From Chloranthus sessilifolius (lineage: Eukaryota > Streptophyta > Magnoliopsida > Chloranthales > Chloranthaceae), in contig CM037598.1 in assembly GCA_021018995.1 (NCBI GenBank), positions 72,124,671 through 72,188,670 on the forward strand: a stretch of 64,000 nt of DNA, given 5' to 3'. The notes beneath the pieces were generated by a model. The model did not search any database, was not told where the DNA came from, and saw nothing but the letters and a program-made list of their open reading frames with translations. Shown here piece after piece: positions 18,861 to 35,255 of the stretch. The translations under genes were made by a program, and so were the position numbers. Every line of letters begins with the position of its first letter. Within the stretch, counting starts at the first letter, position 1.

Positions 18861-18880
18861 TATGTATATATATATGTATA

Positions 18881-18940: not shown

Positions 18941-18942
<2 letters not shown>

Positions 18943-19220
18943 GCCCGGGGATATGTGCTCGGGCGTAGAGATATCTCTGCGCATATTGATAGGTGCTTGA
19001 CATGTAGCGCCTCTGTCTCTGATGCGATAGTCCCTCATTTTTCTAATTTCACCACGTTTTAACCATGGTTACCACTGACACTGACAAAATCAGAATAACA
19101 AAAATGTGGCGAGGCGCTGGGAGTCCATGCCTGACATCCTGATTTTGTCTGATGTAATATCATTAATTAAAAGCGGCGCATGATATCGTGGTTTTTAATG
19201 GTGGACATTACAATTCGAAA
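18941..19220. other. Left border zone of the motif-rich DNA element
   Basis: No gene. It contains GGCCCGGGGATATGTGCTCG and an AGAGATATCTCT palindrome near 18976-18987. From about 19150 it shows the first of three related blocks that recur near 19838 and 20179. The exact element end could not be placed because I found no inverted terminal repeat or 9-bp duplication. Confidence 0.4.
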
Positions 19221-19224
19221 TTAC

Positions 19225-19340
19225 GCTTCGGTACGAAGCGAAAATGCTTCCGAACGAAGCGTTTAACGCTACTAACCGAAGTGTTTGCGCTTCGTAACGA
19301 AGAGTTTGCGCTAGTAACCAAGGCGTTTGCGCTCCCTATG
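19225..19340. repeat. Motif cluster 1: five GAAGCG...GCGCTTC-type units, 21-22 bp apart
   Basis: Units begin near 19235, 19256, 19278, 19299 and 19320 (GAAGCG or variants followed by a TTTGCGCT or AACGCT half). The preceding CGCTTCG-GTA-CGAAGCG at 19224-19240 is a perfect inverted repeat. This is the first cluster of the element. Confidence 0.8.
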
Positions 19341-19412
19341 TGAGATGAAAGACGATTTCCTTCTGACACGTAGCACGTCTGGCCTTGCTTCATTTATTAC
19401 TGTCGTCAGAAC

Positions 19413-19832
19413 CAAGGGTTAAAATATTGGATTTTCGATACATATCGTCCGATACATTCAATATATCGGGGATACATTGAATGTATCGGTTCAATACATT
19501 TTTTTTTTTCAAAAAATCTAAAAAATCAAATTATCGTCCGTATCGTTCGATATGTATCGCGTATCGGCGATACATTGAATGTATCGTTTTGATACATTAA
19601 AAAAAAAAAAATTTAAAAATCAAATTATCGGATGATAATTTGAAATTATCACCCGATAATTTCAAAGTATCGTCCGTATCATTCGATACGGGCAGTACAT
19701 TGCCCGTATCGGACGATAATTACCCTATTTTTTAGGGGGTACGATACATAGGCAATGTACCGTACCGCTCAGGTCCAAAACCGATACGTATCAAGCGATA
19801 CGTATCGGTATCTGACAATTTCTTGACCCATG
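19413..19832. mobile_element. hAT-type MITE (420 bp) with 8-bp target duplication
   Basis: The ends are CAAGGGTTAAAATATTGG and, reversed, CATGGGTCAAGAAATTG, which are imperfect terminal inverted repeats of the hAT CA-GGG type. GTCAGAAC occurs on both sides (19405-19412 and 19833-19840), the 8-bp duplication expected of hAT elements. No coding sequence. The interior is built from repeated CGATACGTATCG/TATCGTCCGTATCG strings that can fold on themselves. It sits inside the left end of the motif-rich element and is therefore younger than it. Confidence 0.82.
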
Positions 19833-19840
19833 GTCAGAAC

Positions 19841-20299
19841 ATTAAATGAGAAGTGGGGCACGACTTCGTGTTCTCAATGGTAATCATTACCATTTTAATT
19901 GAATGTCTGAGAGACTCCTTCGGGCACCCCTTTGGGGAGTCCATTAATTGGCAGAATATTTAACATTTATTGGTCGAATGCTGAAAATTAATAGCCCTTC
20001 TATCAGAGGAAGTTTCGCTCCCCATGATAAGCGTTGACGCTATCTCCTGTTAGTGAATACGCTACGACAAGGAAGCGTTAGCGCTTCATACATGATACGA
20101 AGCGCCCCAAAATTTGACACGTTGCACCATTATGTGCAAAGCAACCTCCGAACACATTTCAGTTATTACTATTGTTAGAACATTAAATAAGGAGCGGGGC
20201 GAGATAGACGAGATTATGGCCCGTGACATCGTGGTGTGCAATGGTCATCATTCCCATTCGAGAAAAATATTTAAGGGCGTGAAAAATATTTGGGAAATA
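19841..20299 (+). promoter_or_regulatory. Repeated 5' region of the DUF1985/Ulp1 gene
   Basis: Blocks starting AACATTAAAT at 19838 and 20179 share a following GAGAAG/GGAGCGGGGC and CGTGnTnTnnAATGGT. A third, more diverged block lies near 19158; it is about 250 bp away once the MITE is removed, and the other two are about 340 bp apart. Motif copies AAGCGTTGACGC (20029) and GAAGCGTTAGCGCTTC (20072-20087) lie within. Given its position it is likely the promoter region. A possible TATA-like ATATTTAAGG is near 20266. Confidence 0.45.
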
Positions 20300-20880
20300 T
20301 CTGCTCAATGATTTGGTCTTTCGTGTATTCTTTGTGGCTCCAAAGGGCGTGAAAAACATCAACAACCTCCTGGACGCAATCATCAAGTTCTGGGACATGA
20401 CAACGTCTGAAATTTTGGGACTGCCAAGTCTGACATTATCAAATTTCGGGCCCCTGATTTTGCCTTGATAACTGGTCTTCAAATGACCGACTTTGTCATT
20501 TACCTTGCGAGGTTGGAGATTCCTGAAGAACGAACCATTAGATATAGGTTTTTCAAGGGCTTTCAAGAGGTTAAAAGGTCACACATCGAAGCGGCGATTA
20601 TGAGAGTCGAGCAGGATGCTGACGACGACTTTCTGAAGCTCTGTCTGTTGTTCGTCCTTGCAACCGTCCTCTTTCCAAACTCACATTACAACCTCGACAA
20701 CTCTCACCTCCGCCTAGTTGATGATCTCTCCAATTTCAACTTATATCCATGGGGTTCGTCACGCGTACACTCATCTTCTAGGGTACTGAAGAAAGTGAAG
20801 ATGATGAGGGGTAGAGCTGAGAAAGTAAAGGCAGGACAGCAATACAATATTTATGACTGCACTATTTCCCTGTAGGCAAA
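20300..20880 (+). CDS. DUF1985 exon
   Basis: An upstream part reads LNDLVFRVFFVAPKGVKN. After a frame change the exon continues KFRAPDFALITGLQMTD, then LKLCLLFVLATVLF and LVDDLSNFNLYPWGSSRVHS. The F-F-LITGL block, the LCLLF--ATVLF helix and the DDL--FN-YPWG block are what I know from plant DUF1985 proteins, which occur almost only in transposon-linked genes. In Arabidopsis VANDAL elements, DUF1985-type proteins (VANC) are, as I recall, the DNA-binding anti-silencing factors. Confidence 0.75.
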
Positions 20881-20968
20881 TGCCGTCTCTCAAAGAATGT
20901 CCTGTTTTATTTCCTATGAAGCGCTGACGATTACGAAAGTCATCTAATATTTATTTTATTTTTCTCAG
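20881..20968 (+). other. Short intron with one motif copy
   Basis: Contains GAAGCGCTGACGA at 20918-20930 and a pyrimidine-rich acceptor. The 5' splice site is not clear. Confidence 0.4.
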
Positions 20969-21100
20969 ATATGGGCATACGAGATTAACGATAGGTGCGC
21001 CCCACACAAGGTTACTGGCACCGTCAGTTTCGCAAGGCTGCTGAAGGAGGAAGCAAATGACCAAAGGAGGCTTTCCTACATTGCAAAATTCGAGCACAAG
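20969..21100 (+). CDS. Second exon (IWAYE segment)
   Basis: Open frame IWAYEINDRCAPHKVTGTVS between a TTTTTCTCAG acceptor and an AAG/GTAAAT donor. A W-A-Y/F-E segment following the YPWG block is typical of this gene family, which supports the exon. Confidence 0.7.
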
Positions 21101-21372
21101 GTAAATTCGAAATGAGGCGATATCGTATCTAAATATAGGCGCTATCGCTATAATGTAGAAGTGCAACCACTTCCAAATGAAGTGAGGGCGCCCCTAACAG
21201 GAGCACAATCGCTACGAAATAAAGCGATGGCCCCTTTAATACGAGTGCAATCGCTATTATATAAAGTGATGCCGCCTCTATAACAAGCGCAATTGCTTCT
21301 TAAAGAAGCAGTCACGCATTCCCAAATTCTTAATCAGTAAAAAATAATATGAAATATCTATCATCTTGTTAG
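21101..21372 (+). other. Intron with scattered motif halves
   Basis: Contains GCGCTATCGC near 21132, GCGCCCCTAAC near 21189, AAAGCGATGGC near 21222 and GCAATTGCTTCTTAAAGAAGC near 21288 as diverged motif copies. Confidence 0.5.
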
Positions 21373-21785
21373 CCGCTCGCATCCAGCAACTGGAGGCTAC
21401 AAGCGATGAAAGTGTCATCCTTGTGGTAGCAGGCGCAGTGAAAGCAGGGCAGAGACCTGCGAAATCGGGTGAAAGATAATCGGTCCCTCTCATTACTGTG
21501 CACAGGAAAAGAATGGACATTGATGTGATTAGCTCCTCGAACGAGGAAGAGGCAGAGGAGGAAGAAGAAGAAGAGGCAGCAGAGGAAGAAGAAGAAGAAC
21601 TCATTCTTCGTAAGTTTGCGAAACTGCGGATTGATGAAAAATGGAAGCAGTCTGTCGATTCAAGAATTGCAGACTGTGAGAGGTCAATCGACGACCTCCG
21701 TATAAAGATTGTTCAACTAGAACAAGAGAACCAACAACTAAAAGCAAAGGTTCTTCAACTGGAAAAAGAGAACCAGCAATTGAAG
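21373..21785 (+). CDS. Acidic and coiled-coil exon
   Basis: Starts AARIQQLEATSDESVILVV and ends in a heptad coiled coil (IDDLRIKIVQLEQENQQLKA, then VLQLEKENQQLK) just before a GTATGC donor. A run of about 20 Glu/Ala residues precedes it (about 21540-21600). The coil suggests a dimer, which would suit recognition of a palindromic DNA site. One in-frame stop near 21477 argues that either this exon starts later or the copy is dead. Confidence 0.65.
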
Positions 21786-21844
21786 GTATGCTTCTAAACT
21801 ATGTTGGATAAATGTTGAGCTTGCGGAAATCCAATGACGAAACA

Positions 21845-21935
21845 ATGACGCTTCCATATGAAGCGTCGACGCTTTTCTGTGATGCATCGACGCTTTTCTG
21901 TGATGCATCGACGCTTTTTTGTGACACGTCGATGC
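21845..21935. repeat. Motif cluster 2: four units at 21-bp spacing in an intron
   Basis: GAAGCGTCGACGCTT at 21860-21874 is followed by ATCGACGCTTTT at 21-bp steps (about 21887 and 21908) and GTCGATGCTTTG. The intervening sequence TCTGTGATGC is shared by the units. Confidence 0.85.
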
Positions 21936-22011
21936 TTTGTATATGAATCTTGAATGCTTCTACAAGTTCACTATTGTTTAAACATAACCTGATATTCTTA
22001 TCATATTCTAG

Positions 22012-22912
22012 GCCCGTAGTGTGTCTAAAAGTCTGTTGTGACCGGCTGGGGATAATCAGACATTTGTCTCCCAACACCATAGGCCTACCTCCTCCCAAAT
22101 CCTAGCCATACCCTAATCCCAACCCCAAGGCAAAGTCCAAGTTCAAGCCGTAGCCCAAGGCCAAACCCCTGCCCCAGCCTTAGCACAAGCTGAAGTCTAA
22201 GCCCCAGCCCAAACCCTAGCGCATGACCCTGCCCAAATCCTAGCCCATAACCTAGCCCAATCCTCAGCACAAGCTAAAGCCGAAGCCGAAGCCCCAACCT
22301 AAGACCCACCCAAAGCCCCACCCCAAGCCTCATCAGAAGCCGAAGCCCTAGCCCAAGACCCACCCATAGCCCTAGCCCTAGACTCAACCCAAGCCCCAGC
22401 TCAAGCCGAAGCCGAAGCCCCAGCCCCAACCACAATCAGACTTCGCGCCCCACCTAAACTCCATACTCCCTCCCAAATCGAACCCCTTACCCAATCGAAA
22501 GTCCTGCCTCTACTACCACTGTGGTCCACCCAACCCCTATAAAGGAGAAACACCAATGACAGCCACCATCTCTGCCTCTACCACCACCACCACCACCACC
22601 GCCTACTCCATCTCATGACGAACAGCCTGAGAAGCCCCTTACGCAACCATGCACTGAGGAGGGGTCTTCTGTGGGAGAAGAAGAAGAAGTGGAGGACCAA
22701 GTCCCATTATCTTTCAGGAGAAGTCAGAGGGTCTGGGCTAAAGGCCTCACGATTCCTCTCTCGTAAACTCACTCTAAAAGAAAGGGAGAACTGGTCTCCC
22801 AAACCCGCAAAAAGAAGGCCAGAATAAAAGCGGTGGCTTTACTACCGATTGCTGATGCACCACCTCAGATCTATATAAATGCTATTTAAGCATTGCCCAA
22901 CAGATGGAACGA
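22012..22912 (+). CDS. Ala/Pro/Gln-rich linker exon
   Basis: Low-complexity repeats of CC(C/T)-AGCC-CAA type encode AQ-PA-AL-AQAE-type peptide for about 180 codons, interrupted by frame changes and stops. More ordinary sequence follows (PTPSHDEQPEKPLTQPCTEE, VPLSFRRSQRVWAKG, then basic RKKKARIKAVALLPIADAPP). The basic RRSQR block resembles the region before Ulp1 domains in related plant proteins. The exon is degenerate. Confidence 0.5.
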
Positions 22913-23260
22913 GTAAGTATATTCCCTCCATACAACATTTAACAAGCCTTTCGAAGCGTCAACGCGTCGTTGTCGAAGCGTTGTCGCCTTTACGTGAGAG
23001 CGTCAGCGCTTTGTAAACTGAGTGCTAACGCACCTACTTCGAAGTGCTAGAGACTGATCCACTTATGTTTTAATTTGAACCTAGGACTCTCATCTCGACC
23101 GTTGGATCCCAATGTATTACCGTCGAGATGATGCGCTACCTGCGATCCAAATAGGAAATAAAAGACTCAGTAAATATTAGTCCCTATTCAACCCTTTCGC
23201 TTCCCTGATTCTATATTGATATTTATACTTTTGTATGCTGATAGTGACCGCATACTTTAG
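22913..23260 (+). other. Intron with motif cluster 3
   Basis: Four units at exact 22-bp steps: GTCAACGC at 22958, GTTGTCGC at 22980, GTCAGCGC at 23002 and GCTAACGC at 23024. The rest has no recognisable coding signal apart from a short open stretch near 23090-23150. Confidence 0.7.
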
Positions 23261-24233
23261 GGTCATGGACAAGCGAAAAGACATTGAGAAGAAGAGGAAG
23301 AGTTTTTGCATGGCCGCCGTTGGACTCACATGCATGAGCATGAATTTTAGAGATTTTGAGAATTATATTAATACGAGTGGTCCACATGTGCCCCCCAACA
23401 TGGCGGGACGGAGCACATACTACGACTATAGTTTTTTCACGCAACAAGGCACGCTGCGTTACTGCCGTTCTTCATAAATAAAAATCGCGCCTTGAATGAG
23501 ATTGAGCGTAAAATTTTTTTTATTCCGATTCACATCCCGAAGCCATCACACAGTGCGCTTGGTATGGCGACCCCCTCAGCTCATAAAATTGATGTCCTTG
23601 ACCCCGTCCTAGGTCGTTCTGCGATAAAGAAATTTATCGAGGCGATAAAGACACTGGTAAGCTACGCTATAATACTCTCAAAAGTAATGCTGGAATCACT
23701 TTATTGCTCTTAGCAGAAGCATTAGCGCGTTTAATATGGGGTGTAATCGCTTTGATAATTGAGCGCCACCGCTTTGATAATGGGGCGTCAACGCTTTTAA
23801 AATAGGGCGTCAGTGCTTCCAAAATGGGTCGTTAGTGCTTTGACATTTTGCTGTCAGCACTTTCACAATGAGGCATCAGCGCTCATTATATGTCAACAAA
23901 TGTGTAACTAATATTTTATTTTATTTTTATTGACAGACACATTACCTCTCAGCCCTATTACATATGTATGGCGCCCCGACTTTCGTTTTTGACAAATGGC
24001 CTTGGGACAGTAAGGTTGTCGACGCGCCGATCCAAAAAAATGATTCTGACTGCGGGGTTTTCGTGATGAAATACGTAGATTATTTGAGTAGAGAACTCCA
24101 GCCAAATTTCAAACAGGAAGACATCGAAACTTTCAGGGCAGAGATTGGGCATGCCATCGGTACCCATAAGAAAGATAATTGGGATGGCAGTGATGATGTC
24201 GATTTTCTTTTACAAATTTTTTGTTTTACATAA
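23261..24233 (+). CDS. Ulp1 (C48) protease exons
   Basis: The first exon (23261-23656) reads MDKRKDIEKKRKSFCMAAVG and, after a frame change, KIFFIPIHIPKPSHSALGMA, with His in the place of the catalytic HW, although the usual Trp is Ser here. KIDVLDPVLGRSAIKKFIEA follows. The second exon (23937-24233) holds WPWDSKVVDAPIQKNDSDCG and VFVMKYVDYLSREL, with the catalytic Gln and Cys (Q-x5-DCGVF). So the triad residues are present although the frame is interrupted. C48 proteases cut SUMO or related modifiers; transposon-borne copies have unknown targets. Confidence 0.82.
23715..23890. repeat. Motif cluster 4: eight units at 22-bp spacing in the last intron
   Basis: Core positions step by 22 bp from 23721: 23743, 23765, 23787, 23809, 23831, 23853 and 23875. 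The consensus here is GGGGCGTCAACGCTTTGATAA. The copies differ from one another by several bases but keep the spacing. Confidence 0.88.
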
Positions 24234-24409
24234 ATATACATTCACATTTGTTGACATACATAACATTGTACTGAAGATTATATGTACATTCATATTTTTT
24301 ATTTTACGTAGAATAGATATACAATGTACACTGACTATAGTACACAAGAATTTTTTAATATACGGGATTTATTTACAGGATATATTATTAATCTCTCAAA
24401 AGTTATGCT

Positions 24410-24505
24410 TCAATTGAGGCGTCAACGCTTTGACAATGGGGCGTTAGCTCTTTGATAATGGGGTGTCAGTGCTCTCACTACTGGGGCATCACAGCCTCTA
24501 TTTTC
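24410..24505. repeat. Motif cluster 5: four units at 22-bp spacing
   Basis: GTCAACGC at 24421, GTTAGCTC at 24443, GTCAGTGC at 24465 and CATCACAGC at 24487, each set in an AATGGGG-type linker as in cluster 4. It lies just past the end of the Ulp1 reading frame. Confidence 0.85.
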
Positions 24506-24584
24506 TAAATGCATTTGTAACTTATATTTTAAATATTTTTTAAAAGACGTGTTATCCTATTAGTGAAATTAAATGAAAGAGTTT

Positions 24585-24725
24585 TAAAACTCAAAGCGTC
24601 ATGGGAAAGGGTTAACGCTTCAATTTAAGAGCATTGACGCTTGTTATAATTAACGTCTTATTCGAGCGCTGACGCTTGTAATAATAAATTTCTTATTCGA
24701 GCGTTGACACTTAAATGCCTTTGGC
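24585..24725. repeat. Motif copies at wider spacing
   Basis: GTTAACGCTTCAA near 24610, GAGCATTGACGCTTG near 24633, GAGCGCTGACGCTTG near 24664 and GAGCGTTGACACTT near 24699. They lie between TTATTCGAG linkers. Confidence 0.75.
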
Positions 24726-25094
24726 GACAGTGCGTGCACCATGATGACTATGACTATCTGTGGTGCTGCTGCTTCTAACAGCTAGCGAAATGATTGAAAA
24801 TACAACACAATCCACAATTACATTTAAGCAATGACGCGTCAACATGAGGCACGCTGAATAATAAGGCCTACATTTTTTATTAGCTTACGTCAAGAAGTGA
24901 CCTCCCCATCAACCGAAGCGCCTATGCTTCAATTAGATAAGGTAACAAATTTCTTTTTGTGTATATTATCCAAAAGATAACTGATTTGTAAATATTAAGG
25001 TCTGCTTTTTAGTAGGATACGAAAATCCACTGCAATGAATAATGTTTCAAATTTTCTGAGAAAAAATACTTTTATATTGTATAAGAGCAATAAT

Positions 25095-25275
25095 TATAAG
25101 CAATGACGCTTCGAATTAGACGTGATGATGCTTCGTATTAGAAGCGATGACGCTTCGAATTTTCAACGATGAGGCGTCGAATTTGCAACGATGAGGTTTA
25201 GACATAAGCGATGACGCTCCACATTAGAGGCGAAGACGCTTCCTATAAGAAGCGATGACGCTTGTTATTAGAGCT
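25095..25275. repeat. Motif cluster 6: eight units, 22-bp phasing
   Basis: TGACGC-type cores at 25104, 25126, 25148, 25170, 25192, 25212, 25234 and 25256, that is, steps of 22, 22, 22, 22, 20, 22 and 22. GAAGCGATGACGCTTC at 25141-25156 matches the consensus exactly. Each unit ends in an AATTAG-type linker. Confidence 0.92.
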
Positions 25276-25439
25276 AGGCTCTTCAACCTAAAGGTATTAT
25301 TATTACCTTCATGATTATTAGGACTACTAGCACATCGGAAAGCACATATTGTATTAATTTAAATGACAAACGTAAAGTTTGTATTAATGTATTCATACAT
25401 TAAAAAAAAAAAGTATAACAAGGAAGAGAATTGGGATGC

Positions 25440-25885
25440 CAGTTACTATATGGATTTCGAAGTGATGTTTCAAACCCTAGCCTTTTTCCCTATAAAGCCA
25501 CTGCTCGTCACAAACCCTTCCCATTCTAAACTCATCGTCTTTCTCCGTCTCCAACCCTAACCCTAACCCCATAGCGGAAGTACCATTCCATGACGAGTTA
25601 AGTAGGAGGCTTGATCAAATCCTTGAAATGCAAAGGGTCGAGCTTCTGGCTGAAATAAAAAATTAGAAAAGTTGAAGCGTAGACAGTCATTCCATACGCT
25701 GGATGGTCTACCGAGACCCCTCGACCCTTCTTTTCAACTTCTCACATTCCCTCACTTTTTCACAATCTCACCATCAAACTCCTTCTTCAGTGCGAGTTCC
25801 TCTATGAAATTCCTTCCTCAGTGCGAGTTCCTCCACGAAGACGGCAGGTTGGAAATTTTTACGCCACCCTTGGCTGTGAATTTAT
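25440..25885 (+). pseudogene. Small repeated ORF unit, copy 1 (promoter plus short coiled-coil reading frame)
   Basis: CCCTATAAAGCCAC near 25488 is followed by CAAACCCTTCC and a degenerate frame related to copies at 27535-27740 and 33484-33820. The stretch at about 25590-25690 corresponds to the L-x-QILEKQRAKLLAAI segment of copy 3 but is interrupted, and FLPQCEFLHEDGRLEIFTPP matches RRCEFFYQDGGLKIYNKREP of copy 3. No family is recognised. Confidence 0.5.
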
Positions 25886-25971
25886 AACCAGTCTCCCAGC
25901 TAGAGGGAGCCATCTCTCTCAATGAAACCATATCCCTTGGCTGTAATCTTTGCTCTGATGGATCCTTGCGA

Positions 25972-25996
25972 TCACCTCATCAATGGTTGAATTAGG
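25972..25996. repeat. CACCTCATCAAnGGTTGAAT module, copy 1 of 5
   Basis: Related copies lie near 28145, 30680, 31258 and 33962. On the minus strand each reads through a conserved D-E-V peptide (for instance STLDEVTASI at the second copy). Whether it is coding or a binding site is unknown. Confidence 0.55.
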
Positions 25997-26599
25997 GATC
26001 CATCTCTATATGAGGAAAGAGTAATTTAGAAGGTTTAGAAGTGAAGATAACCATTCTTTCCAAAATCTTTGCTCTCTGCAGCAAAAACTTCAAAAGCTTG
26101 AGCTTGTCTTCAGAGCCTCCGAAGTCTCGGGGTCTTTACTTTCTTTTGATGGTTTGACGGATTTATCATTAATGTAATCAGTTTATTGGTTAATCTCTGT
26201 AAATATATCTTTCAATATTAATAAAAATTTTCTTTTTCTGTATATTAGTTTCTTTTCTGTATAATTTTCTTATATCCGGTGCACTTGCCACTATGATATT
26301 TATAGGGTATCCCCTTGTTTTATTATTTTTTGAGTATTACAAATGTAGCTCCATACTCAATAAAGTGACAGCGCCCTGAATATTAGGGTCAGATCTTCGA
26401 CCAAGCGGCATGAACGTTAAGGCTAGCTGAGGCGCTGTCCCTTTTAATGATGCGGAAAATAAAAGAAAGGATATGGTTACAAAATTAAACTGACGGAAGG
26501 CTAAAAGGTTATTTCATATTTTATAAGAAGAAAGATATTTTTATTGTGATACGAGCAATAATTAATATTAGATAAGACCGCGCAAAACTACAACACAAT

Positions 26600-26725
26600 C
26601 CGCTTCCAATTAGAAGCGATATCGCTTCGAATTTGTAACGATAGCGGGTCAAATATCAAGTGATGACGCTTCAAATTAGAATCGAAGATGCTTCCTATAT
26701 AAAGCGATAACGCTTGTATTTAGAA
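26600..26725. repeat. Motif cluster 7: five units at 22-bp spacing
   Basis: Cores at 26620, 26642, 26664, 26686 and 26708. The first is a perfect 16-bp palindrome, GAAGCGATATCGCTTC at 26613-26628. Confidence 0.9.
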
Positions 26726-26869
26726 ATAGGGCTTTAACTTAGAGGCATTATTATTTTCAGAATGTTAAAAGGCATTTTCATATTTTCTAAGAAAAAAAAT
26801 ATTTTTATTGTGATATGAGCAATAATTAATATTAGATAAGATCGTGTGAAAATACAACACAATCTGCTT

Positions 26870-27160
26870 CGAAAAAGAAGCGATGACGCGCCGTATTTAC
26901 AACGATGAAACTTCCAACATAAGAGATGATGCTAGAAATGAGAAGCGAAAGGGTATGGTCAAAAGAATAAACTGACGGAATGCTAAAAGGCATTTTCAAA
27001 TTTTCTAAGAAAAAATGCTTTTTTATTGTGATACGAGCAATAATTAATGTTATAAGACGACATGAAAATACAAAATAATCTGCCTCAAATTTAGAAGCAA
27101 TGACGCGTTGAATTTACAACGATGACGCTTCGAACATAAGCGACGACGCTTAGAAAGCAC
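26870..27160. repeat. Diverged motif copies flanking two TTTTTATTG-type boxes
   Basis: AAGCGATGACGCG near 26879, AGCAATGACGCG near 27096, CGATGACGCTTCG near 27119 and AGCGACGACGCTT near 27138 are spread between two copies of the box ATTGTGATACGAGCAATAAT. Confidence 0.7.
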
Positions 27161-27433
27161 AGATTGTATTAAATTAACCACAACAACAAAGTTTGTATTA
27201 ATATATTCATATATTAAAAAAAAATACAACAAAATCTATTGGGATACGAACAATCGCTGGAATAATTAATGTTAGATAAGACTGGGCGAAAATAGAAACC
27301 CATGTCCCATCACAAACCCTATAAAGCCACGTCCTGTCCCGTCCATGGCGGAAGAAGGCAAGAATCGCATTAAAAAATTTCCCCTTGCCAACTACCCAAG
27401 CCTTAATACCTACATCTCGATATTCAATTCGAA

Positions 27434-27742
27434 GTGACGGTTCAGAATCGTTCCCTTCCCTATAAAACCAGACCTTCACCATTCCAAGTACCAATCTCTT
27501 TCATTTTCCTAAGATCCATAACCATAAACCCTATGACGAAAGAGCGTCACCCAAGTGATTTCAGCAAGAGACTTGATAGAATCCTGAAAAAAAATAGAGC
27601 CGAACTCCTAGCTGCAATCTCGAAAGTAGAAGATCTGAAGTGTCAGCGACCTATACCTGATGCTGAATCATCCATCGAAACTAGCCTTCACCCTAAACCT
27701 AACCCAAAACTGAACCATATATCAAGAACTCATCTTCCCTGA
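27434..27742 (+). CDS. Small repeated ORF unit, copy 2
   Basis: TATAAAACC at 27461 precedes an ATG at 27533 giving MTKERHPSDFSKRLDRILKK, then NRAELLAAISKVEDLKCQRP and IPDAESSIETSLHP. The start at 27533 is preferred over upstream ones because it matches the other copies in position. About 70 residues, with a charged amphipathic helix. A second TATAAAGCCACGTCCTGTC lies at 27320, a partial copy of the same promoter. Function unknown. Confidence 0.5.
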   Translation: MTVQNRSLPYKTRPSPFQVPISFIFLRSITINPMTKERHPSDFSKRLDRILKKNRAELLAAISKVEDLKCQRPIPDAESSIETSLHPKPNPKLNHISRTHLP

Positions 27743-27844
27743 CTTCCTAACATATCACCCATCAAAACCTAGCCAGAATGCGACTTCCTATACAGTGAGG
27801 ATGGGTTGTAATTTTCAAGGTCACCCTCCATCCCAAGGGTAGTA

Positions 27845-28170
27845 GTGAGGATGCAAGATAAAGAAGGGCACAGAGGAGTGTTTGACAACTCTTGGAGGAG
27901 TGATCCTTTCTCCTCCCTTTCTCCGAAGATGCTCCTCCCTTCATTCCCTTCTCCTTCTTCCGCCTCGGCCTCAACCTCCTTGCCTCCACTGTCTCGGCCC
28001 ACTTTGGATTTAGATGACAAGTGGTTTATGATACTTTCAAATGTCTACATAGAAAAAGAAGAAGGTAGATGCACTAGTACTAAAGCCTACTTTCAAAAAT
28101 TTCATAGGAAAAGTACTGTCCTTGCTCCTACTGATACTTGCGGTGACCTCATCAAGGGTTGAATCAAGGT
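27845..28170 (+). CDS. Short repeated frame, copy 1 (RPTLDLDDKWFMILSN)
   Basis: An open frame with a Ser/Pro-rich start (MLLPSFPSPSSASASTSLPP) and then RPTLDLDDKWFMILSNVYIE and STKAYFQKFHRKST. The second half recurs at about 31095-31220 with a similar frame (PTLDLNDTWFVVLSNAYMEK), so it is conserved at the protein level between copies 3.1 kb apart. Family not recognised. Confidence 0.45.
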
Positions 28171-28286
28171 TCACTAGATCGTTTAATGTATCAGAATCAT
28201 CATGAATTTCATATGACCAATTTATGATAAATAGAGACATTGTAAAGAAAATGTGTTAAGAAAGATGACGTAAAGAAATAGTTTTG

Positions 28287-28590
28287 AGTTATGAATGAAG
28301 CCTTCGAATGCATGATTTGTACTTTTATTTTTTATTTCATCTTATTTTATTTAGTGATGGTACAAGTAGTCTAACGCAAGCGCTAGCAATATTAATAAGA
28401 AGCGATTGCACCATGAATATTAGGGCTAGTGCTTCGACCTGCGCTTTAGGCCCTTGACGGTTCGACTCAAGAGCGTTAACGCTTCAATTTAGAAGCGTTG
28501 ACGCTTTAATAAATGTCTAATTTGAGCGCTGCCGCTTGTAACTTGATGCACAGTCGCTCTCTGTGGCTGAGTCAGTGCTTCGTAATGAGG
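28287..28590. repeat. GAGTTATGAATGAA block with motif copies, copy 1 of 3
   Basis: Starts GAGTTATGAATGAAGCCTT and contains GCAAGCGCTAGCAATATT and GAATATTAGGGCTAGTGCTTC. Two motif units follow 22 bp apart (GAGCGTTAACGCTTC at 28471 and GAAGCGTTGACGCTTT at 28492). Related blocks start at 29412 and 31397. Confidence 0.8.
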
Positions 28591-29205
28591 TGTAAGTGTC
28601 AACGTTCACTTGTACGTTTATTGGGATACGAACATCCACTAGAATAATTAATGTTGGATAAGTCCGGGCAAAATTTCATCACAATCCTTGATTTAGAAGC
28701 GATTTCGTATTGATAACGCTTCGATTTGGAAGCAATGGCGCATCTTACTTGAGGATTTGTTGCGGTCGACACTAAATCTCCAACAAAAATAAAACCTTGG
28801 AAAAATTCTAACTGTATGATGGTTGGCCCATGATCTCAAGATCCATCATGTGAAAGATTGGGAGGATAAACGATCTCCATCATCTGATTCTACCAAGTCA
28901 ATGTGTTTCATCATGGGTGAGGTCAAAGATTTGGTGAGTGGATTTAAAGGTACTCAAATCTAAAGATAGACATGAAAGGCATTTTTTATTGGGATACGAA
29001 CCGCCGCTTCGCACAGAAAGGTGCTACGTGTCATATCGCACAAAATAGGTACTACGTGTTAATACTTTGATGATGGTAATAAATGACAGGGAGATGACGT
29101 GCCAAAATAAAGCGAGCTGAATATTAAGGCTTGCTTTTTTATTAGCGATATCGCCCGGGATTAGTAATAAATGAAACGTCACTTGCGTCAAGAAGAGCCC
29201 TCGCC
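28591..29205. other. Spacer between repeated blocks
   Basis: Contains two GGGATACGAAC boxes (28623 and 28987) and a diverged motif pair near 28700-28740. A stretch at about 28760-28970 (CTCCAACAAAAATAAAACC to AGATAGACATG) shows no repeat relation that I could find and no coding signal. Confidence 0.5.
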
Positions 29206-29209
29206 ATCA

Positions 29210-29305
29210 ACCGAAGCGCCAACGCTTTAATTAAAAGTGATGACGCTTCCAATTAGAAGCTATGACGCTTCCATTTAGAAAAGATAATGCTTCTAATTAT
29301 TAGGT
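29210..29305. repeat. Motif cluster 8: four units, 21-22-bp spacing
   Basis: Cores at 29220 (CCAACGC), 29241 and 29263 (TGACGC) and 29285 (TAATGC), each with an AATTAG or ATTTAG linker. The preceding CAAGAAGAGnCCTCGCCATCA is also found at the start of cluster 12 (about 34698), so the two clusters are duplicates. Confidence 0.88.
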
Positions 29306-29411
29306 CATTATTATTAGCGGCATGATTATTAGCGAAATGATTATTAGGTGATACGGTTCGAATCGTGAGCATTAACACTTCAATTTAGAGGCATTGACGC
29401 TTTAATAAACG

Positions 29412-29600
29412 ACTTATTTGAGTTATGAATGAAACCTTAGAATGCATGATTTGTAAAGTTTTTTATATTTTATTTTATTTTATTCAGTGAGCACACAAGT
29501 AGTCCAACGGAAGCGCTAGCGCTATTAATAAGAAGCGACTGCGCCCTGAATATTAGGGCTAGCGCTTCGACCTAGCGCCTTGAGGCCCTTGAATATTAGT
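29412..29600. repeat. GAGTTATGAATGAA block, copy 2 of 3
   Basis: Contains GGAAGCGCTAGCGCTATTAA at about 29509 and GGGCTAGCGCTTCGACC near 29560. A near-palindrome of AGCGCTAGCGCT is visible. Closely related to 28287-28450 and 31397-31560. Confidence 0.8.
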
Positions 29601-29754
29601 GGTAGCTAAGGCAGAGATTGTATTGATATGAAAGATAAAATCTGTGTGATGTTCATATAAATTTTTATGGAATTATCCTGAGAAGCAAGAATTATCCCTC
29701 TTCATGAAATTAAATGAAAGTGTTTATTTTTATATAAACTAAGAAAATCGTAAC

Positions 29755-29860
29755 GCCAGTGACGCTTCAGTTTAAAGTGATGACACTTCAATTTAAAAGC
29801 GATGACGCTTTGACTCTGGAGCATTAACGCTTCAATTTAAAAGCGTTGATGCTTTAATAA
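29755..29860. repeat. Motif cluster 9: five units at 21-22-bp spacing
   Basis: Cores at 29760, 29781, 29803, 29825 and 29847. Linkers are CAATTTAA-type. A final GAGAGCTGACGCTAG lies near 29873. Confidence 0.88.
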
Positions 29861-29984
29861 ATGTCTTATTTGAGAGCTGACGCTAGTAACTAGAAGCGCA
29901 ATCGCTCTTTGTGACCGCGTCAATGCTTCGATAGAGTCAGTTTTTATTGGATAGCTGAGACGGAAGTCTAAACGATGCTTTATA

Positions 29985-30355
29985 TTAAAATACGAATAAC
30001 ACAGAGAGATGACGTGTCAAACCGAAGTCCGCGGGAAGAGACAGCACAACACCCCTCAAAAATCGTAACGCCACTGACACGCCACTTAGAAGCGATGACA
30101 CGCCACTTGGAATATGAACAACACAGGAGATGACGTGTCAACCGAAGTCTGCGGGAAAAGATGGCACACCCCTTGAAAATCGTATCGCCACTGACACGCC
30201 GCTTAGAAGCGATGACATGCTACTTGGAATATGAACAACACAGGAGATGACGTGTCGACTGAAGTTCGCAGGAAAAGACAGCACACCCCTTGAAAATCGT
30301 ATCACCACTGACACGTCGCTTAGAAGCGATGACACGCCACTTAGAATACGAATAG
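29985..30355. repeat. Tandem repeat of about 117-121 bp, three copies
   Basis: The string GATGACGTGTC recurs at 30008, 30129 and 30246. Each unit contains CACTGACACGCC, CTTAGAAGCGATGACA and ACTTGGAATATGAACAACAC. A fourth, isolated start of the unit is near 35095-35135. The units carry motif variants, so this is a higher-order expansion of the same sequence. Confidence 0.85.
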
Positions 30356-30479
30356 CTGTATGTAATAAATATGAAGCGGCAGTGCACCACAACAGTCTAT
30401 TTAATGAGATTGCATGAAAAAATTTCTATTGAAAGGATCTCAAAGCGTTCACTCTTTTTCTTCTTATGTATCTCCTTAG

Positions 30480-31100
30480 ATTAGCAGTTCATCTTCTTCA
30501 GCCCAAGGGGAAATGCGGCTCACCCGTTTGCGGATGAGCCACCGTCTTGCGCATCGTCGTTGTATTAGTTCATATGATTTTTCGGTTCTCGACATCCCTG
30601 ATGACAAAGAGCTAGCTGTCGTCCCCAATGATCCTCCACTTCTTCCTCTTCCACCACAGCCACAACCTCTACTTACAATGACCTCATCAAGGGTTAAATC
30701 AGGGTCTGCTAGATCGTCCAATGCATCACCTCCCTTCATTATCTTTCCTTCTTACCCTTGCTCCTCCCTTTCTCTGAGGATGCTCCTCCACCCGATGCTC
30801 CTCCTCCCTTCTTTCTCTTTCCTGCTTACCCTTGCGCAATAGTTGCTCCTTCCCCTCTTTATCTTTCCTGCTTTCCCATCGTTAATTCTTTCACTTCTCC
30901 TTCTTGCCATTTCTCAATTCTTCACTTCTCCTGCTTTACCTTCCTCAATTTTTCACTTCTCCTTCTTGCCCTTTTTTAATTCTTCACTTTTCCTTCTTAC
31001 CATTGCTCCTCCCTTTTCTCTAACGATGCTCCTTCCTTCATTCCCTTTTTCATGCTCCCTTCATTCCCATCTTCATGCTACCTCGGCTCCTCTGTCTTAG
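30480..31100 (+). other. CT-rich low-complexity stretch with short open frames
   Basis: Repeats of TCTCCTTCTTnCC, TTTCCTGCTTACCC and CTCCTCCC give Leu/Pro/Phe-rich frames on the plus strand. None has a recognisable domain. It contains the third CCTCATCAAGGGTT module (30682) and grades into the repeated PTLDLND frame near 31095. Confidence 0.45.
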
Positions 31101-31280
31101 CCCACTCTGGATTTAAATGACACGTGGTTTGTAGTTCTTTCAAATGCCTACATGGAAAAAGAAGGTCGATACACTAGTACTAAAGCCTACTTTCAGAAAT
31201 TTCATAAGAAAAGTACTGAATCTTTGGAAAGACCTTGCTCATATGAATACTTGTGGTGATCTCATCAAGGGCTGAATCAG
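31095..31280 (+). pseudogene. Short repeated frame, copy 2
   Basis: PTLDLNDTWFVVLSNAYMEK and then STKAYFQKFHKKST match copy 1 at about 27995-28110 with several substitutions. The module TCTCATCAAGGGCTGAAT follows at 31258, as in copy 1. The duplication distance is 3.1 kb. Confidence 0.5.
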
Positions 31281-31396
31281 GGCACTAGATCTTCAATGCA
31301 TCAGAACCATTATGAATTTCGTCAGACCCATTTACAATAAATAGAGACAATGTAAAGAAAGATGTGTAAAGAAAGAAGATGTAAAGAAATAGTTTT

Positions 31397-31570
31397 GAGT
31401 TATGAATGAAACCTTCAAATGCATAATTTGTAAATTTTTTATTTTATCTTATTTTATTCAGCGATATCACAAGTAGTCCAGCGGAAGCGTTTGCGCTATT
31501 AATAAGAAGCGACTATGCTATGAATATTAGGGCTAACGCTTCGACCTGTGCCTTGAGGCAGAGATTGTAT
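31397..31570. repeat. GAGTTATGAATGAA block, copy 3 of 3
   Basis: Contains GGAAGCGTTTGCGCTATTAA (31483) and GGGCTAACGCTTCGACC (31527). It lies 3.11 kb from copy 1. Confidence 0.8.
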
Positions 31571-31759
31571 TGATATGAACGGAGCATTTCTTGTATAGTT
31601 TGTTGTTATTTTTTTTAATATATGAATACATTAAAAGAATCTCTGCTTTTGTATTACTAGCGCTTTGCTGATGTCTCTCCTTTCTCTTTCCGAAGTGATG
31701 ATAACTTTAATATATGAATACATTAATAATCATGCCGCTAATAATAATGCCGCTAAGAT

Positions 31760-31875
31760 GGAGCGCTTGTCCTAAATAGAAGCATCATTGCTTTTAAATG
31801 GAAGCATCATCCCTTCTAATTGGAACCGCCATCGCCTCTAAATGGAAGCACCATCGCCTCAAATTTTGTAGAATT
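31760..31875. repeat. Motif cluster 10: four diverged units at exact 22-bp spacing
   Basis: GCATCATTGCTT at 31782, GCATCATCCCTT at 31804, CCGCCATCGCCT at 31826 and GCACCATCGCCT at 31848. The spacing is kept although the palindrome is eroded. Confidence 0.82.
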
Positions 31876-32490
31876 ATCCTGAGAAGCTGAAATTATCCGT
31901 CTTCATGAAATGAATAAAATTATTTATATTCATATAAATTGAGACTAATTACAGAACATCACTATATAAGAAAGAGAAGTAAATTCGACGATAAAGGAGT
32001 TTTGAAGATGGAAGCTACTACACTTATGATGTAAGCGCTGACGCTTCAGTTAATGAGCGTGTTAAAATGAATTCTGCAGAAACAGACAACACACCGCTTA
32101 GAGGCGATGACATGGTGCTTGGAATATGAATAGTCACTGCAATAAATTATGTTGGACAAGATTGCACAAAAGGAGCACTGCTAAACTCAAGAAGCGTCCC
32201 CGCCCGTAATTTGAAACGATGACGCTTCAAATTTGAAGCGCCCATGGCAAACTTTACCGTATCAGTCATTGACTAGATTTTTCTTAAATTAATCTTTTAT
32301 TTAATCAACTTCTTTGTTAATCTCTGTAAATATTAACTTTCATATTAATCTTTGTAAATATTAACTTTCAAAAAATAAAGAAATCATATAAACGAGAAAA
32401 GCTCTGTGATGGCCTTCTCCCTTTCATTTAAACGAAAAACTGTGAGATCGAATTCATATAAATGAAAGATATTTTATTCTTATAAAGTAC
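31876..32490. other. Spacer with scattered motif copies
   Basis: Contains GTAAGCGCTGACGCTTC near 32031, GGCGATGACATGG near 32103 and ACGATGACGCTTCAAATTTG near 32216. Two TTAATCTTTTATnTAATCAAC-type strings follow (one here near 32290, the other at 34260). Confidence 0.5.
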
Positions 32491-32541
32491 TACTTACAAA
32501 AATACAGAGTAGAAGAAAGAAGAAGAAAAGCTAAGAAAAAT

Positions 32542-32868
32542 CTACAGAGACAGACATACACCAACACAACTCAGCCACCTGAGACATAATTCGTGCAGTC
32601 GATCCTCCAAAATGGGTGGAGAGGTAGACGACTCCCCCTTCGGACTGCATCGTAATTTGCGTAGCCGATCCTCGAAAATGGGAGAAACCATTTCAATTGT
32701 GGCCATAAAGGGTTTAATCACATCCATCAAACTTTGAAACCTCCTTTTCTTTTGGGCAAGAAGGGCGAGAAGTTCCTCAGTATCCCCGGTCGTTAAACTT
32801 AGAAAGGTTCGATCAAGAAGACAAAACGCTTCCATAATCTCGGACGAAAACTCGAGTTGTTCTATCAT
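32542..32868 (-). CDS. Unknown 108-residue ORF on the minus strand
   Basis: Starts at ATG 32868 (MIEQLEFSSEIMEAFCLLDR) and ends at 32542. It is predicted to be mostly helical, with LLALLAQKKRRFQSLMDVIK and an internal repeat (SPIFEDRLRKLRC and PPILEDRLHELC). A related but eroded stretch lies near 34570-34690 (GGATAGATGACTCCCCCTC in both). No family is recognised. It is the only clear minus-strand frame in this element, so it could be a separate small gene of the element. Confidence 0.45.
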   Translation of the reverse strand: MIEQLEFSSEIMEAFCLLDRTFLSLTTGDTEELLALLAQKKRRFQSLMDVIKPFMATIEMVSPIFEDRLRKLRCSPKGESSTSPPILEDRLHELCLRWLSCVGVCLSL

Positions 32869-33039
32869 GGTGAAGGGAGTTTGGTTTGGGGACGGAGGCA
32901 AAAGAAAGGATATGGAATAAAGATAAAGGTGTGGCAGGGTAAAAGGTATTTTTTTTGGGATACGAAAAGTTGCTGTAATAAATAATGTTTCAAATTTTTT
33001 GAGAAAAAAGGTTTTTTTATTGTGATAGAGCAATAATTA

Positions 33040-33130
33040 GGACGCTTTGAATTAGACGCGATGATGCTCCACATTAGAGGTGAAGACGCTTCCTATAAGA
33101 AGCGATGACGCTTGTTATTAGAGCTAGTTC
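33040..33130. repeat. Motif cluster 11: four units at about 22-bp spacing
   Basis: GACGCTTTGAATTAG, GATGATGCTCC, GAAGACGCTTCC and GCGATGACGCTTG. This is a duplicate of the 25104-25275 cluster lying 7.9 kb away, with internal units lost. Confidence 0.85.
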
Positions 33131-33349
33131 TTTAACCTAGAGGCATTATTATTACTTACCTTCATGATTATTAGGGATACCAGCACATCGAAAAGCACAT
33201 ATTGTATTAATTATGTTGGAAAAGACTGCATGAAAAGACAATCTGTGCTTTTCGATGTGCTGGTGGCCCTAATAATCATGAAGTATTGACTTTGCTATGA
33301 ACAAGTGCCATGGGTAACATCAAACAGTGGCTCGATATTCGAGAGAAGT

Positions 33350-33820
33350 TCCTCCATCGACCCTCAAAATTTATTTCAAAGTGACGTTCAAACCCTAGCC
33401 GTTTTTCCTATAAAGCCACGTCCTGTCACAAACTCTTTTCATTTCAAACCCATCGTCTTTCTCCGTCTCCTAGCCCTAATCCCATGGCAAAAACCAGATG
33501 ATGACGAACTAAGTAGTATGCTTAATCAAATTCTTGAAAAGCAAAGAGCCAAACTTCTGGCTGCAATAAAGAGATTAGAAAAGTTGAAGCACCAACGACC
33601 CATTCCAGTCTCTGAATCCTCTACTGAGACCCCCCGTTGCCATAAATCTCGTCTCAAACTGACCATTTTTTCCAACTTCTCTCCTTCCCCCACTTCTTCA
33701 CGATGTCACCAACCTCACCATCAAATGTTGCATCGTCGGTGTGAGTTCTTCTACCAGGATGGTGGGTTGAAAATTTATAACAAGAGGGAGCCATCTCTCT
33801 TGATGGAGCCAAAATTGTAA
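33350..33820 (+). CDS. Small repeated ORF unit, copy 3 (best preserved)
   Basis: CCTATAAAGCCACGTCCTGTC at 33408 gives a TATA box. About 75 bp on, the frame runs WQKPDDDELSSMLNQILEKQ, RAKLLAAIKRLEKLKHQRPI and PVSESSTETPRCHKSRLKLT, ending near 33820. The helix LNQILEKQRAKLLAAIKRLE looks like a coiled coil. The matching segment in copy 2 (LDRILKKNRAELLAAISKVE) keeps 10 or more positions, so the peptide seems constrained. Function unknown. Confidence 0.5.
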   Translation, partial: SSIDPQNLFQSDVQTLAVFPIKPRPVTNSFHFKPIVFLRLLALIPWQKPDDDELSSMLNQILEKQRAKLLAAIKRLEKLKHQRPIPVSESSTETPRCHKSRLKLTIFSNFSPSPTSSRCHQPHHQMLHRRCEFFYQDGGLKIYNKREPSLLMEPKL

Positions 33821-34700
33821 GACCCCTTCCTTGCTCCTCCTCCCTTCATTCTCTTTTCTTAACCCATCCTCCTCCTCAGCCTACTCATCTCTAGTTTCTT
33901 AGCGAATCTTTGGTTATAAGTCGTTGAAAGTGTAATCCTCGCTCTTATGGATCCTTGCGATCACCTCATCAATGGTTGAATGAGGGAGCCATATTTCTTG
34001 ACGGAGTAACAAATTTACAGCAAACTATGAGGATGGTGGGTTGGAAATTTACAGCAAGAGGGAGCCATCTCTCTTGACGGAGTAAAAAATTTGAAGACCC
34101 CGAGACAGATCTCCATTGCAATCGTTACCGTGTCAGGAAGGATAACGCTCCAATTTAGATGCGTTGACGCTTTAATAAACGTATTAATCGAGCGCTGGCA
34201 CTTGTAACTTGAAGCGCAGTCGCTCTTTGAGTCGGTCCTTGTCTAGATTTTTCCTAAGTTAATCTTTTATGTAATCAACTGCTTTGTTAATCTCTGTAAA
34301 TATTAACTTCCATATTAATAGAGAATTTCTTTTTGTGTATATTATCCCAAAAGTTAAGATTTGTGAATATACTATAAAGCTCGAGTTAAAAGCGATAATG
34401 CTTCAAGTTAGAAGCCATGACGCGTCAAAATGAAAGCGAGCTGAATATTAATTAGAGGTATGATTATTAGGGCTACCAGTACATCAAACAGTAGAGATTG
34501 TATCAATTTAAATGACAAAATCAGAGATTGTATTAATGTATTTATATACTAAAAAAAATGAACAACAAACCGTACAAGACAAAAAAAAGAAAACATAGAA
34601 AAGAAGAAGAAGAGACATAAGCAAAGCTGCTGGAGAAGCCATCATTTAGGGATAGATGACTCCCCCTCAAACTTGCTAGAAATGTCTTCAATCACGTCAA
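33821..34700. other. Non-coding duplicated sequence with motif copies
   Basis: Contains the fifth CACCTCATCAATGGTTGAAT module (33962), a duplicated GAGGGAGCCATCTCTCTTGA (33786 and 34058), motif copies at about 34150-34220 and AAGCGATAATGCTTC at 34382. No gene recognised. Confidence 0.5.
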
Positions 34701-34719
34701 GAAGAGACCTCGCCATCAA

Positions 34720-34815
34720 CCGAAGCGCCAATGCTTGATTAAAAGCGATGACGCTTCTAATTAGAAGCATTGACGCTTCCATTTAGAAAAGATGACGCTT
34801 CTAATTATTAGGGCA
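34720..34815. repeat. Motif cluster 12: four units at 22-bp spacing
   Basis: GCCAATGC near 34728 is followed by TGACGC cores at 34749, 34771 and 34793. It is the duplicate of cluster 8 and among the best-kept arrays. Confidence 0.9.
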
Positions 34816-34959
34816 TTATTATTAGCGGCATGATTATTAGGGCTACTAGCACGTTGAAAAGCAGAGATTGTATTTATTTATTTATATATTAAAAAATGAA
34901 CAACAAATCGTACAATTAAGAAACATTGTATTAATTTAAATTTGATACGATTCGACTTA

Positions 34960-35255
34960 TTTGAGTGCTGACGCTTGTAACTTGAAGCGCAGTCGTTCTT
35001 TGTGGCCGCGTCAGTGCTTTGCTTCGTTATGAGTCGGTTTTTATTGGATAGCTGAGAGCCTGAGACGAAAGTCTAAATGGCACTTTATATTGGAATACGA
35101 ACAACACAGGGAGATGACGTGTCGAACTGAAGTTCGCGAGAACTTTTAATATACGGGATTTATTAAATTATGCTTCAATTGAGGGGTGAGCGCTTTTGTA
35201 GCAAGGCGTCAGTGCTATGGTAATGGGGCGTCAGCGCTTCAAACTAGAGGCATTA
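34960..35255. repeat. Last motif copies at the right end of the element
   Basis: GTGCTGACGCTTG near 34964, GAAGCGCAGTCGTTC near 34984, GAGCGCTTTTGTAG near 35188 and GGGGCGTCAGCGCTTC near 35226, with an AATTGAGG or AATGGGG linker as in clusters 4 and 5. No copy is seen to the right of 35255. Confidence 0.8.

Follow-up and report, generated by a model that had tools for sequence, protein, structure and literature searches.

The window, the whole 64-kb stretch analysed here (C15:72124671-72188670, from the 2.17-Gb genome of Chloranthus sessilifolius in 32 contigs), contains a copy of a large Mutator-like element (MULE) family. The element is filled with phased copies of a split palindrome, AAGCG-N4-CGCTT, referred to below as the dyad, and carries a gene with DUF1985 and Ulp1 domains. 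We consider it probable (roughly 0.6), from sequence comparison, that the family encodes a VANC-like, Ulp1-bearing system for self-recognition and anti-silencing, housed in MULEs with a FAR1-type transposase. The evidence comprises the dyads, their exact gap and phasing, their mainly non-coding placement and concentration in the family, homology of the DUF1985 domain to VANC21, and linkage of two genes.

Our starting point was a first-pass annotation, which had described about 60 palindromes, spaced in most clusters by exactly 22 bp. GACGCTT occurs 29 times on the plus strand of the window (about 28 had been estimated by eye), and all 29 copies lie inside 19225-35255. Self-match autocorrelation across 19.0-35.4 kb has its top peak at 22 bp, with 21, 44, 42 and 66 bp also among the top ten. 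In the flanks, 22 bp is absent from the top ten on both sides; 21 bp ranks fifth in the right flank, where other arrays occur. Tandem Repeats Finder detects a row of 21-23 bp arrays inside the element, at the places named earlier. Hence, the phased array is real. At up to two mismatches, dyad sites number 91 in 18938-35300, against 12 across the remaining window. The count is thus nearer 90 than 60, and the observation is stronger than described. Between successive sites in the element, steps of 22 bp predominate (27 steps), and 12 steps are 21 bp. The spacing does survive erosion near 31782-31848, where a 22-bp array extends from 31772 to 31864. The arrays, identified by dyad scan, Tandem Repeats Finder or both, are as follows (no strand assigned).

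19236..19334, dyad array, 5' subterminal (both)
21137..21320, dyad array in the intron preceding the coiled-coil exon (dyad scan)
21840..21938, dyad array past the coiled-coil exon, 21-bp steps (both)
22954..23012, dyad array in a presumed intron (dyad scan)
23717..23843, dyad array in a presumed intron within the Ulp1 part (Tandem Repeats Finder, 23736-23843, and dyad scan)
24411..24712, dyad arrays directly downstream of the DUF1985 gene (both)
25092..25263, dyad array, 7.9 units of 22 bp (Tandem Repeats Finder)
26601..26716, dyad array (Tandem Repeats Finder, 22-bp array at 26601-26643, and dyad scan)
29214..29299, dyad array (both)
29760..29858, dyad array (both)
31772..31864, dyad array, eroded yet in phase (both)
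34738..34807, dyad array (both)

A 117-bp tandem repeat (3.1 copies, 29989-30352) also contains half-site variants, and related sequence occurs near 35.1 kb.

The window copy (W) was compared with copies A91, B123, C139, D55, E51, F66 and G73 (loci L009-L028). Note that these were picked from motif clusters on C1, the first contig listed, and so do not sample the family at random. The blocks they have in common with the window copy are about 74-90% identical. Constraint falls on AAGCG-N4-CGCTT, whose spacer is free, and this unit recurs at intervals of 22 (or 21) bp. In eight elements, AAGCG occurs 406 times and CGCTT 435 times, compared with 107 and 114 in shuffles. Inward pairs with a 4-bp gap number 82, against 0.4 expected. 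At other gaps there are none (0-3, 5-8, 10 and 11) or three (gap 9). The next AAGCG most commonly starts 13 bp past CGCTT, completing the 22-bp repeat. While half-sites and gap are fixed, the spacer is ATGA in only 27 of the 82 perfect sites and varied in the others. Consequently, the consensus proposed earlier, GAAGCGATGACGCTTC, is not the conserved unit. A scan of all 5-mers at gaps 0-12 ranks AAGCG with gap 4 first in W (13 occurrences) and A91 (17). In F66 its six occurrences are equalled by two frames of this site; in L037 and L038 together its four are equalled by one such frame and by AATGG with gap 9. Among 938 anchored half-sites, the inner mate carries 0.48 bits of column information, the spacer 0.20 and the linker 0.10. 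Genome-wide, GAAGCG-N4-CGCTTC is found 3456 times and the reversed pattern 23 times, a contrast of about 150-fold. The same half-sites at gaps 5-8 combined give 115 and 72 reversed, and GATGACGCTTC gives 2762 versus 219. A binding site with two-fold symmetry would be expected to leave such a pattern. Because 21-22 bp is about two helix turns, successive sites should lie on the same helix face.

Dyads lie mainly outside coding DNA. Outside recognised coding sequence there are 6.87 half-sites per kb (915 in 133,187 bp), compared with 1.32 within it (25 in 18,949 bp); coding here means only parts matching the window exons and the transposase. None of the 88 perfect dyads falls in these parts, and introns of the DUF1985 gene contain several arrays. 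Smaller relatives share the motif. A non-autonomous relative of about 1.1 kb lies nested in E51 (23796-24885); its ends are similar and set in (AT)n, and it has five dyads at two mismatches (shuffles 0.32, maximum 3). The end of a relative adjoining D55 has four in 690 bp (shuffles 0.28, maximum 3). Of the first eight motif places on C1, taken as 3-kb loci, three have 7-11 dyads at two mismatches. Isolated dyads with a TCGG spacer also recur, for example at C1 14331339, 17831431, 26337287, 53407802 and 55207704, and may mark a non-autonomous subfamily.

The protein-coding parts follow one another on the plus strand and probably form one gene.

20411..20872, plus strand, DUF1985 exon, 154 codons, open, homologous to the VANC21 DUF1985 (Pfam PF09331, E 2.2e-13)
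20969..21103, plus strand, second exon (IWAYEIND...), unmatched in Pfam (limits set by eye)
21480..21794, plus strand, acidic and leucine-rich coiled-coil open stretch, zipper-like, lacking a basic region (bZIP_1 profile positions 27-60 only, below cut-off)
22118..22426, plus strand, proline-rich tandem stretch (Tandem Repeats Finder, 6-bp unit, 51.5 copies)
23549..23686, plus strand, Ulp1 His/Asp segment, HWVLAVATPSAHKIDVLDP in B123 and HSALGMATPSAHKIDVLDP in the window (alignment of copies)
23934..24230, plus strand, Ulp1 (Peptidase_C48) C-terminal catalytic part with QKNDSDCGVF (Pfam PF02902, E 5.4e-09)

The two Pfam matches confirm the domains named at first pass. VANC proteins are indeed of DUF1985 type (PMC5735166). 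A profile of seven DUF1985 sequences from the family (A1) was compared with the PDB. VANC21 (9LNJ, 9LNK) was the top match (E 0.043), followed by an unrelated match (0.078). With profile A2, in which five DUF1985 sequences of other subfamilies were added and one family member dropped (11 sequences), VANC21 was the only match (E 7.7e-07), spanning most of the domain. The VANC21 stretch itself matches PF09331 with E 3.8e-22. A DUF1985 search of a large protein set returned zero matches, and a single-sequence fold of the DUF1985 exon had a mean pLDDT (predicted local distance difference test) of 44.

In eight aligned copies, the Ulp1 His-Trp pair is retained in B123, A91, D55 and L038. The catalytic Cys is retained in W, B123, D55, G73 and F66; it is Tyr in E51, L035 and L038, and Ser in A91. 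Ratios of nonsynonymous to synonymous substitution (dN/dS) come from mostly dead copies and are only a contrast within those copies. For the coiled-coil stretch, dN/dS against the window copy is 0.15-0.42. Median values over 91 pairs are 0.65 for DUF1985, where pairs include three loci of other subfamilies, versus 0.39 for exon 2, 0.41 for the coiled coil and 0.54 for Ulp1. Fast DUF1985 evolution fits an arms race and decay alike.

The element is a MULE whose 5' end sits at a TA microsatellite, as do the other 5' ends located in the family. Its two terminal features in the window are listed here.

18860..18939, no strand assigned, (AT)n microsatellite adjoining the 5' end, presumed target ((TA)n at all eight located 5' ends)
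18939..18985, plus strand, imperfect 5' terminal inverted repeat (TIR), GAGGCCCGGGGATATGTGCTCGGGCGTAGAGATATCTCTGCGCA... (aligned with seven other 5' ends and the inverted 3' ends of A91, C139 and F66)

The window copy thus begins near 18939, not at 19225 as first drawn. On the right, where the limit had been placed at 35255, MULE homology ends near 35.29 kb, shortly before a long terminal repeat (LTR) retrotransposon. The 5' ends were located in 8 of 12 copies (not in A91, B123, C139 or L035), and all adjoin (TA)n. They align as a repeat like GAGGCCC..GGATATGCGCTCGGG.GTAGAGATATCTCTGCGC. The 3' ends, located in A91, C139 and F66, are similar to the 5' repeat when inverted. Two of the three abut (TA)n directly, and that of F66 is separated from it by a CT repeat of about 36 bp. 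The TIRs of the family are imperfect and about 40 bp long. Target-site duplications, mostly 9-11 bp in the MULE superfamily, are illegible inside (TA)n. A CACTA-type end signature was rejected, with four one-mismatch matches against 4.8 expected.

The most complete copies have two convergent genes: the DUF1985/coiled-coil/Ulp1 gene and a FAR1-MULE-SWIM transposase. In B123, C139, E51 and F66, the transposase is on the opposite strand near the 3' end, with its pieces in that order. Pfam detects FAR1 (E 1.6e-19 in B123) and MULE (E 2.1e-17 in B123, 7.5e-22 in F66), and the SWIM motif of F66 is slightly below cut-off (E 0.0009). No copy examined has an unbroken transposase frame. Linkage between the genes was then assessed genome-wide. 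Note that 150 were scored of 5067 first-look candidates for window-type DUF1985, 4046 for the DUF1985 family and 1117 for the transposase, so counts are lower bounds. At least 27 of the 150 window-type DUF1985 matches listed have a transposase match within 60 kb, and 25 of these transposases are downstream on the opposite strand. Random shifts gave a mean of 1.8 and a maximum of 9 in 1000. Among the 150 family matches listed, 40 are window-type and 110 are other, though some of the latter may belong to the family of the window. Three of the 110 have a transposase within 60 kb (the 108 in the main test gave two); the third is C5:21190007, whose transposase match lies on the opposite strand, 11 kb downstream, while the last of the 110 has none in the lists. 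On C1, within the range of 100 listed places, GATGACGCTTC is found within 25 kb of six of eight window-type DUF1985 matches and one of eight others. A transposase open reading frame (ORF) also lies at C15:72211764, 66.7 kb downstream of the DUF1985 of the window and on the opposite strand, and may be the remainder of this element.

We propose that the DUF1985 protein, predicted to be the reader, would pair via its leucine-rich coiled coil. The dimer would bind each dyad, and bound dimers would align along one helix face. The bound protein, perhaps via Ulp1, a SUMO protease, would strip silencing marks from the element. Non-autonomous relatives sharing the dyads would also be freed of such marks.

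Several observations count against this proposal. The outer mate of each half-site carries 0.22 bits (938 anchored half-sites), barely over the 0.17 of its linker. The window copy is defective; its Ulp1 part is degraded and there is no transposase match in the 64 kb. DUF287 was not found in the exon 2 pieces of the window and B123 (Pfam, E up to 10). Some VANCs lack DUF287. Selection of copies also matters, since 8 of the 12 were chosen by motif. The four chosen by DUF1985 alone (L035-L038) have 27-32 half-sites and only one or two perfect dyads each in the parts counted. Five of the eight C1 motif places mentioned above have 0-2 dyads and so are outside arrays. Many isolated dyads genome-wide fall under no assigned element. 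Retention of CpG in the motifs, looked for as a trace of hypomethylation in pairwise comparisons, was negative: half-site CpGs are kept in 55.5% of 2326 cases and others in 54.0% of 14108, with changes to TG or CA in 34% and 32%. The AAG part of half-sites is better kept (80.8% versus 71.8%), and no other of the 116 CpG-containing 5-mers is kept as well as AAGCG. These comparisons are non-independent and the copies mostly dead.

Relationships between motif and protein sequence also argue against it. The motif is identical in both DUF1985 groups of the family, though DUF1985 falls to about 55% identity. Six loci of other subfamilies were inspected over 4.9-8 kb each; they fall into three subfamilies (L029, L030 and L033; L031 and L032; L034). 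The five that were aligned have 25-27% identity to the DUF1985 of the window, and the sixth, L030, has 96% DNA identity to L029. Perfect dyads are absent from these loci, which have 5-11 half-sites each within 7.5-8 kb. The 5-mer scan found in them no array of their own and no replacement motif. The only dyad above the shuffle maximum was TCGAT with gap 2, present four times in L033 and resembling motif 2 described below. Because the motif is constant in the family, and the six other loci have no array, co-evolution of motif and DUF1985 is not demonstrated. A joint change of the two between subfamilies, a question raised at first pass, was seen only as presence or absence of the motif, with no replacement motif (six loci, three subfamilies).

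Sequence cannot tell which encoded protein reads the dyads, and the transposase could be the reader. The dyads would then be sites of the element's own FAR1-MULE-SWIM protein, serving transposition and perhaps demethylation; we judge this unlikely. Subterminal repeats serve as transposase binding sites in other DNA transposons, and dyads are retained in non-autonomous relatives. The transposase has a DNA-binding domain, FAR1, and is itself linked to dyads: on C1, six of eight transposases have GATGACGCTTC within 25 kb among the places listed, one of the six being the query's own copy. Moreover, TnpA and MURA are cited as hypomethylating factors (PMC10398659). However, the dyads are spread over 16 kb, introns of the DUF1985 gene included, rather than clustered at the ends. 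In addition, VANC21, a DUF1985 relative with a solved structure, is a known motif reader (PMC5735166). Recruitment of a host factor for transcription of the element, either a TGA-type bZIP, as suggested at first pass, or another dimeric plant factor, seems distinctly improbable. Split palindromes are typical of host dimers too. Of the 88 perfect sites, 40 include TGACG, which is also slightly more frequent outside TGACGCT than in shuffles (319 versus 189). Yet the TGA part falls in the unconserved spacer, CGCTT without a preceding TGA occurs 801 times against 234 expected, and sites fill introns and intergenic DNA instead of one promoter. Least of all do we favour neutral minisatellites that lack a reader and were spread by slippage and copying. 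Tandem Repeats Finder shows many of the arrays to be true tandem repeats, and their CpGs decay like any others. Nevertheless, a neutral process would not be expected to produce an exact 4-bp gap around a free spacer, with an inner mate more informative than spacer or linker, nor is the gap a local feature, being maintained genome-wide.

To the right of the MULE, the LTR retrotransposon occupies about 35358-63778 and is apparently complete. Its first LTR runs to about 37818 and the second ends at 63773. The two LTRs are 91% alike across an aligned 1.7 kb, and a 5-bp duplication, CTAAT, is present on both sides (read by eye). A sequence like a primer-binding site, TGGTATCAGAGC, was also read by eye past the first LTR. 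Beyond the second LTR, the sequence at 63774-64000 has no match in any of the copies fetched. This retrotransposon has a palindromic array of its own, motif 2 (TTCGATTAATCGAA), mostly in 19-21 bp steps, located as follows.

Window 36006-36358 and 62045-62280, motif 2 arrays in the LTRs
Window 43164-43365, motif 2 array between the LTRs
L030 2128-2615, motif 2 array
L035 358-839, motif 2 array
L036 6124-6687, motif 2 array
L009 2726-3358, motif 2 array

Motif 2 has the same kind of architecture in a different class of transposable element. Related LTR sequence occurs in 3 of the 10 DUF1985 loci fetched (L030, L035 and L036), and in 7.5 kb of these GATTAATC is found 15-18 times, versus about 0.5 expected. 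We considered motif 2 as the partner motif of another DUF1985 subfamily and rejected this, as it sits in inserted LTR-retrotransposon sequence.

Two further ORFs recur in the MULE family. The module DELS.RLDQILE.QR.ELLAAIK.LEKLK.QRP is present several times per element (window 25496-25733, 27407-27739 and 33290-33817; C139 6283-6771; D55 6691-7185), and the two window copies scanned had no convincing Pfam match. A proline-rich ORF, SYD.SV.DI.DDNELVVVP..., is found at window 30480-30842, B123 13586-14161 and D55 19278-19781; the one copy scanned had no Pfam match. On the minus strand at 15417-18441, near the (AT)n at the element start, ORFs resemble a nucleotide-binding-site leucine-rich-repeat (NBS-LRR) resistance gene (GMGGLGKTTLAQ; labelled by eye).

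The gap rule and 21/22-bp phase amount to a direct prediction of binding, and with so many sites methylome tests are easy in this species. Should the DUF1985-Ulp1 protein prove to be the reader, an anti-silencing solution would have spread among MULE lineages, here under a different recognition rule. A more specific version has the module moving between MULE clades, giving a Jittery/FAR1 TA-MULE with a coiled-coil-dimer reader, fused to a SUMO protease unlike VANC21, and silencing lifted by tethered deSUMOylation along a one-face dimer array. We put this forward tentatively and think it rather unlikely. DUF1985, DUF287 and Ulp1 were reportedly gained and lost among eudicot VANCs, in the 2022 work of Sasaki et al. 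The same work is said to attribute specificity to motif sequence, density and helical periodicity, and to describe targeting of non-autonomous copies.

The papers on VANC-type anti-silencing drawn on here deal with Arabidopsis VANDALs. By comparison, the present family has a distant DUF1985 relative in a FAR1-type MULE with different insertion sites. In PMC5735166, VANC proteins bear DUF1985, and those drawn have DUF1985 and DUF287. The target of VANC21 is YAGTATTAY and that of VANC6 a region rich in AGTTGTCC/AC; both motifs are tandem repeats in non-coding DNA (PMC5735166). Like these systems, ours has a MULE-encoded DUF1985 protein, a variable, tandemly repeated protein stretch, and motifs mainly in non-coding DNA and introns. 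It differs in its split palindrome with a free 4-bp spacer, in having Ulp1 and a FAR1 transposase, and in DUF287 not being found in the exon 2 pieces scanned. A DUF1985-Ulp1 gene with phased motifs is not new in kind. With reference to Sasaki et al. 2022, PMC13317346 describes Ulp1 in some VANC genes (KIU), which act on their own group's motifs; it also reports motif-specific hypomethylation for KIU-carrying VANDALs. KIU of Kaonashi resembles the present candidate system as an anti-silencing gene with a Ulp1 domain in a MULE. These elements are described there as non-TIR MULEs, whereas ours has imperfect TIRs, a FAR1-type transposase and TA-microsatellite sites.

The element had been called VANDAL-like, a label that does not fit the FAR1-MULE-SWIM transposase of its complete relatives and the (TA)n ends, which are like those of Jittery/MuTAnT-type MULEs. 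VANDAL TIRs are given as missing or degenerate (PMC10398659, PMC6446971). Since PMC6446971 lists TIRs of 46-174 bp for some of the VANDAL group, ends alone do not exclude a VANDAL or separate our family from all of them. FAR1 is the stronger difference. The VANDAL transposase is listed with SWIM, CCHC, PMD or DUF, without FAR1, and FAR1 is listed in some members of another plant-containing group, 35 (PMC6446971). Judged by domains and not by a tree, the transposase would thus fall outside the VANDAL kind. On the same footing, its FAR1, MULE and SWIM domains, together with the TIRs, would place the family among Jittery/FAR1-type MULEs. This leaves the VANC-like working claim unweakened. In the Jittery group (group 36), the transposase likewise has a FAR1 N-terminus and a SWIM or CCHC C-terminus, with TIRs of 39-292 bp; one ORF is listed, and the description of group 36 does not mention an anti-silencing gene (PMC6446971). 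MuTAnT and AutoMuTAnT of Medicago share (TA)n flanks, a Jittery-like transposase and small non-autonomous relatives with our family, and their TIRs (mean 47 bp, distal G's) are similar to ours (PMC4486113). By contrast, AutoMuTAnT is 4.9 kb with a single ORF, and in the text of PMC4486113 no word starts with DUF or Ulp1.

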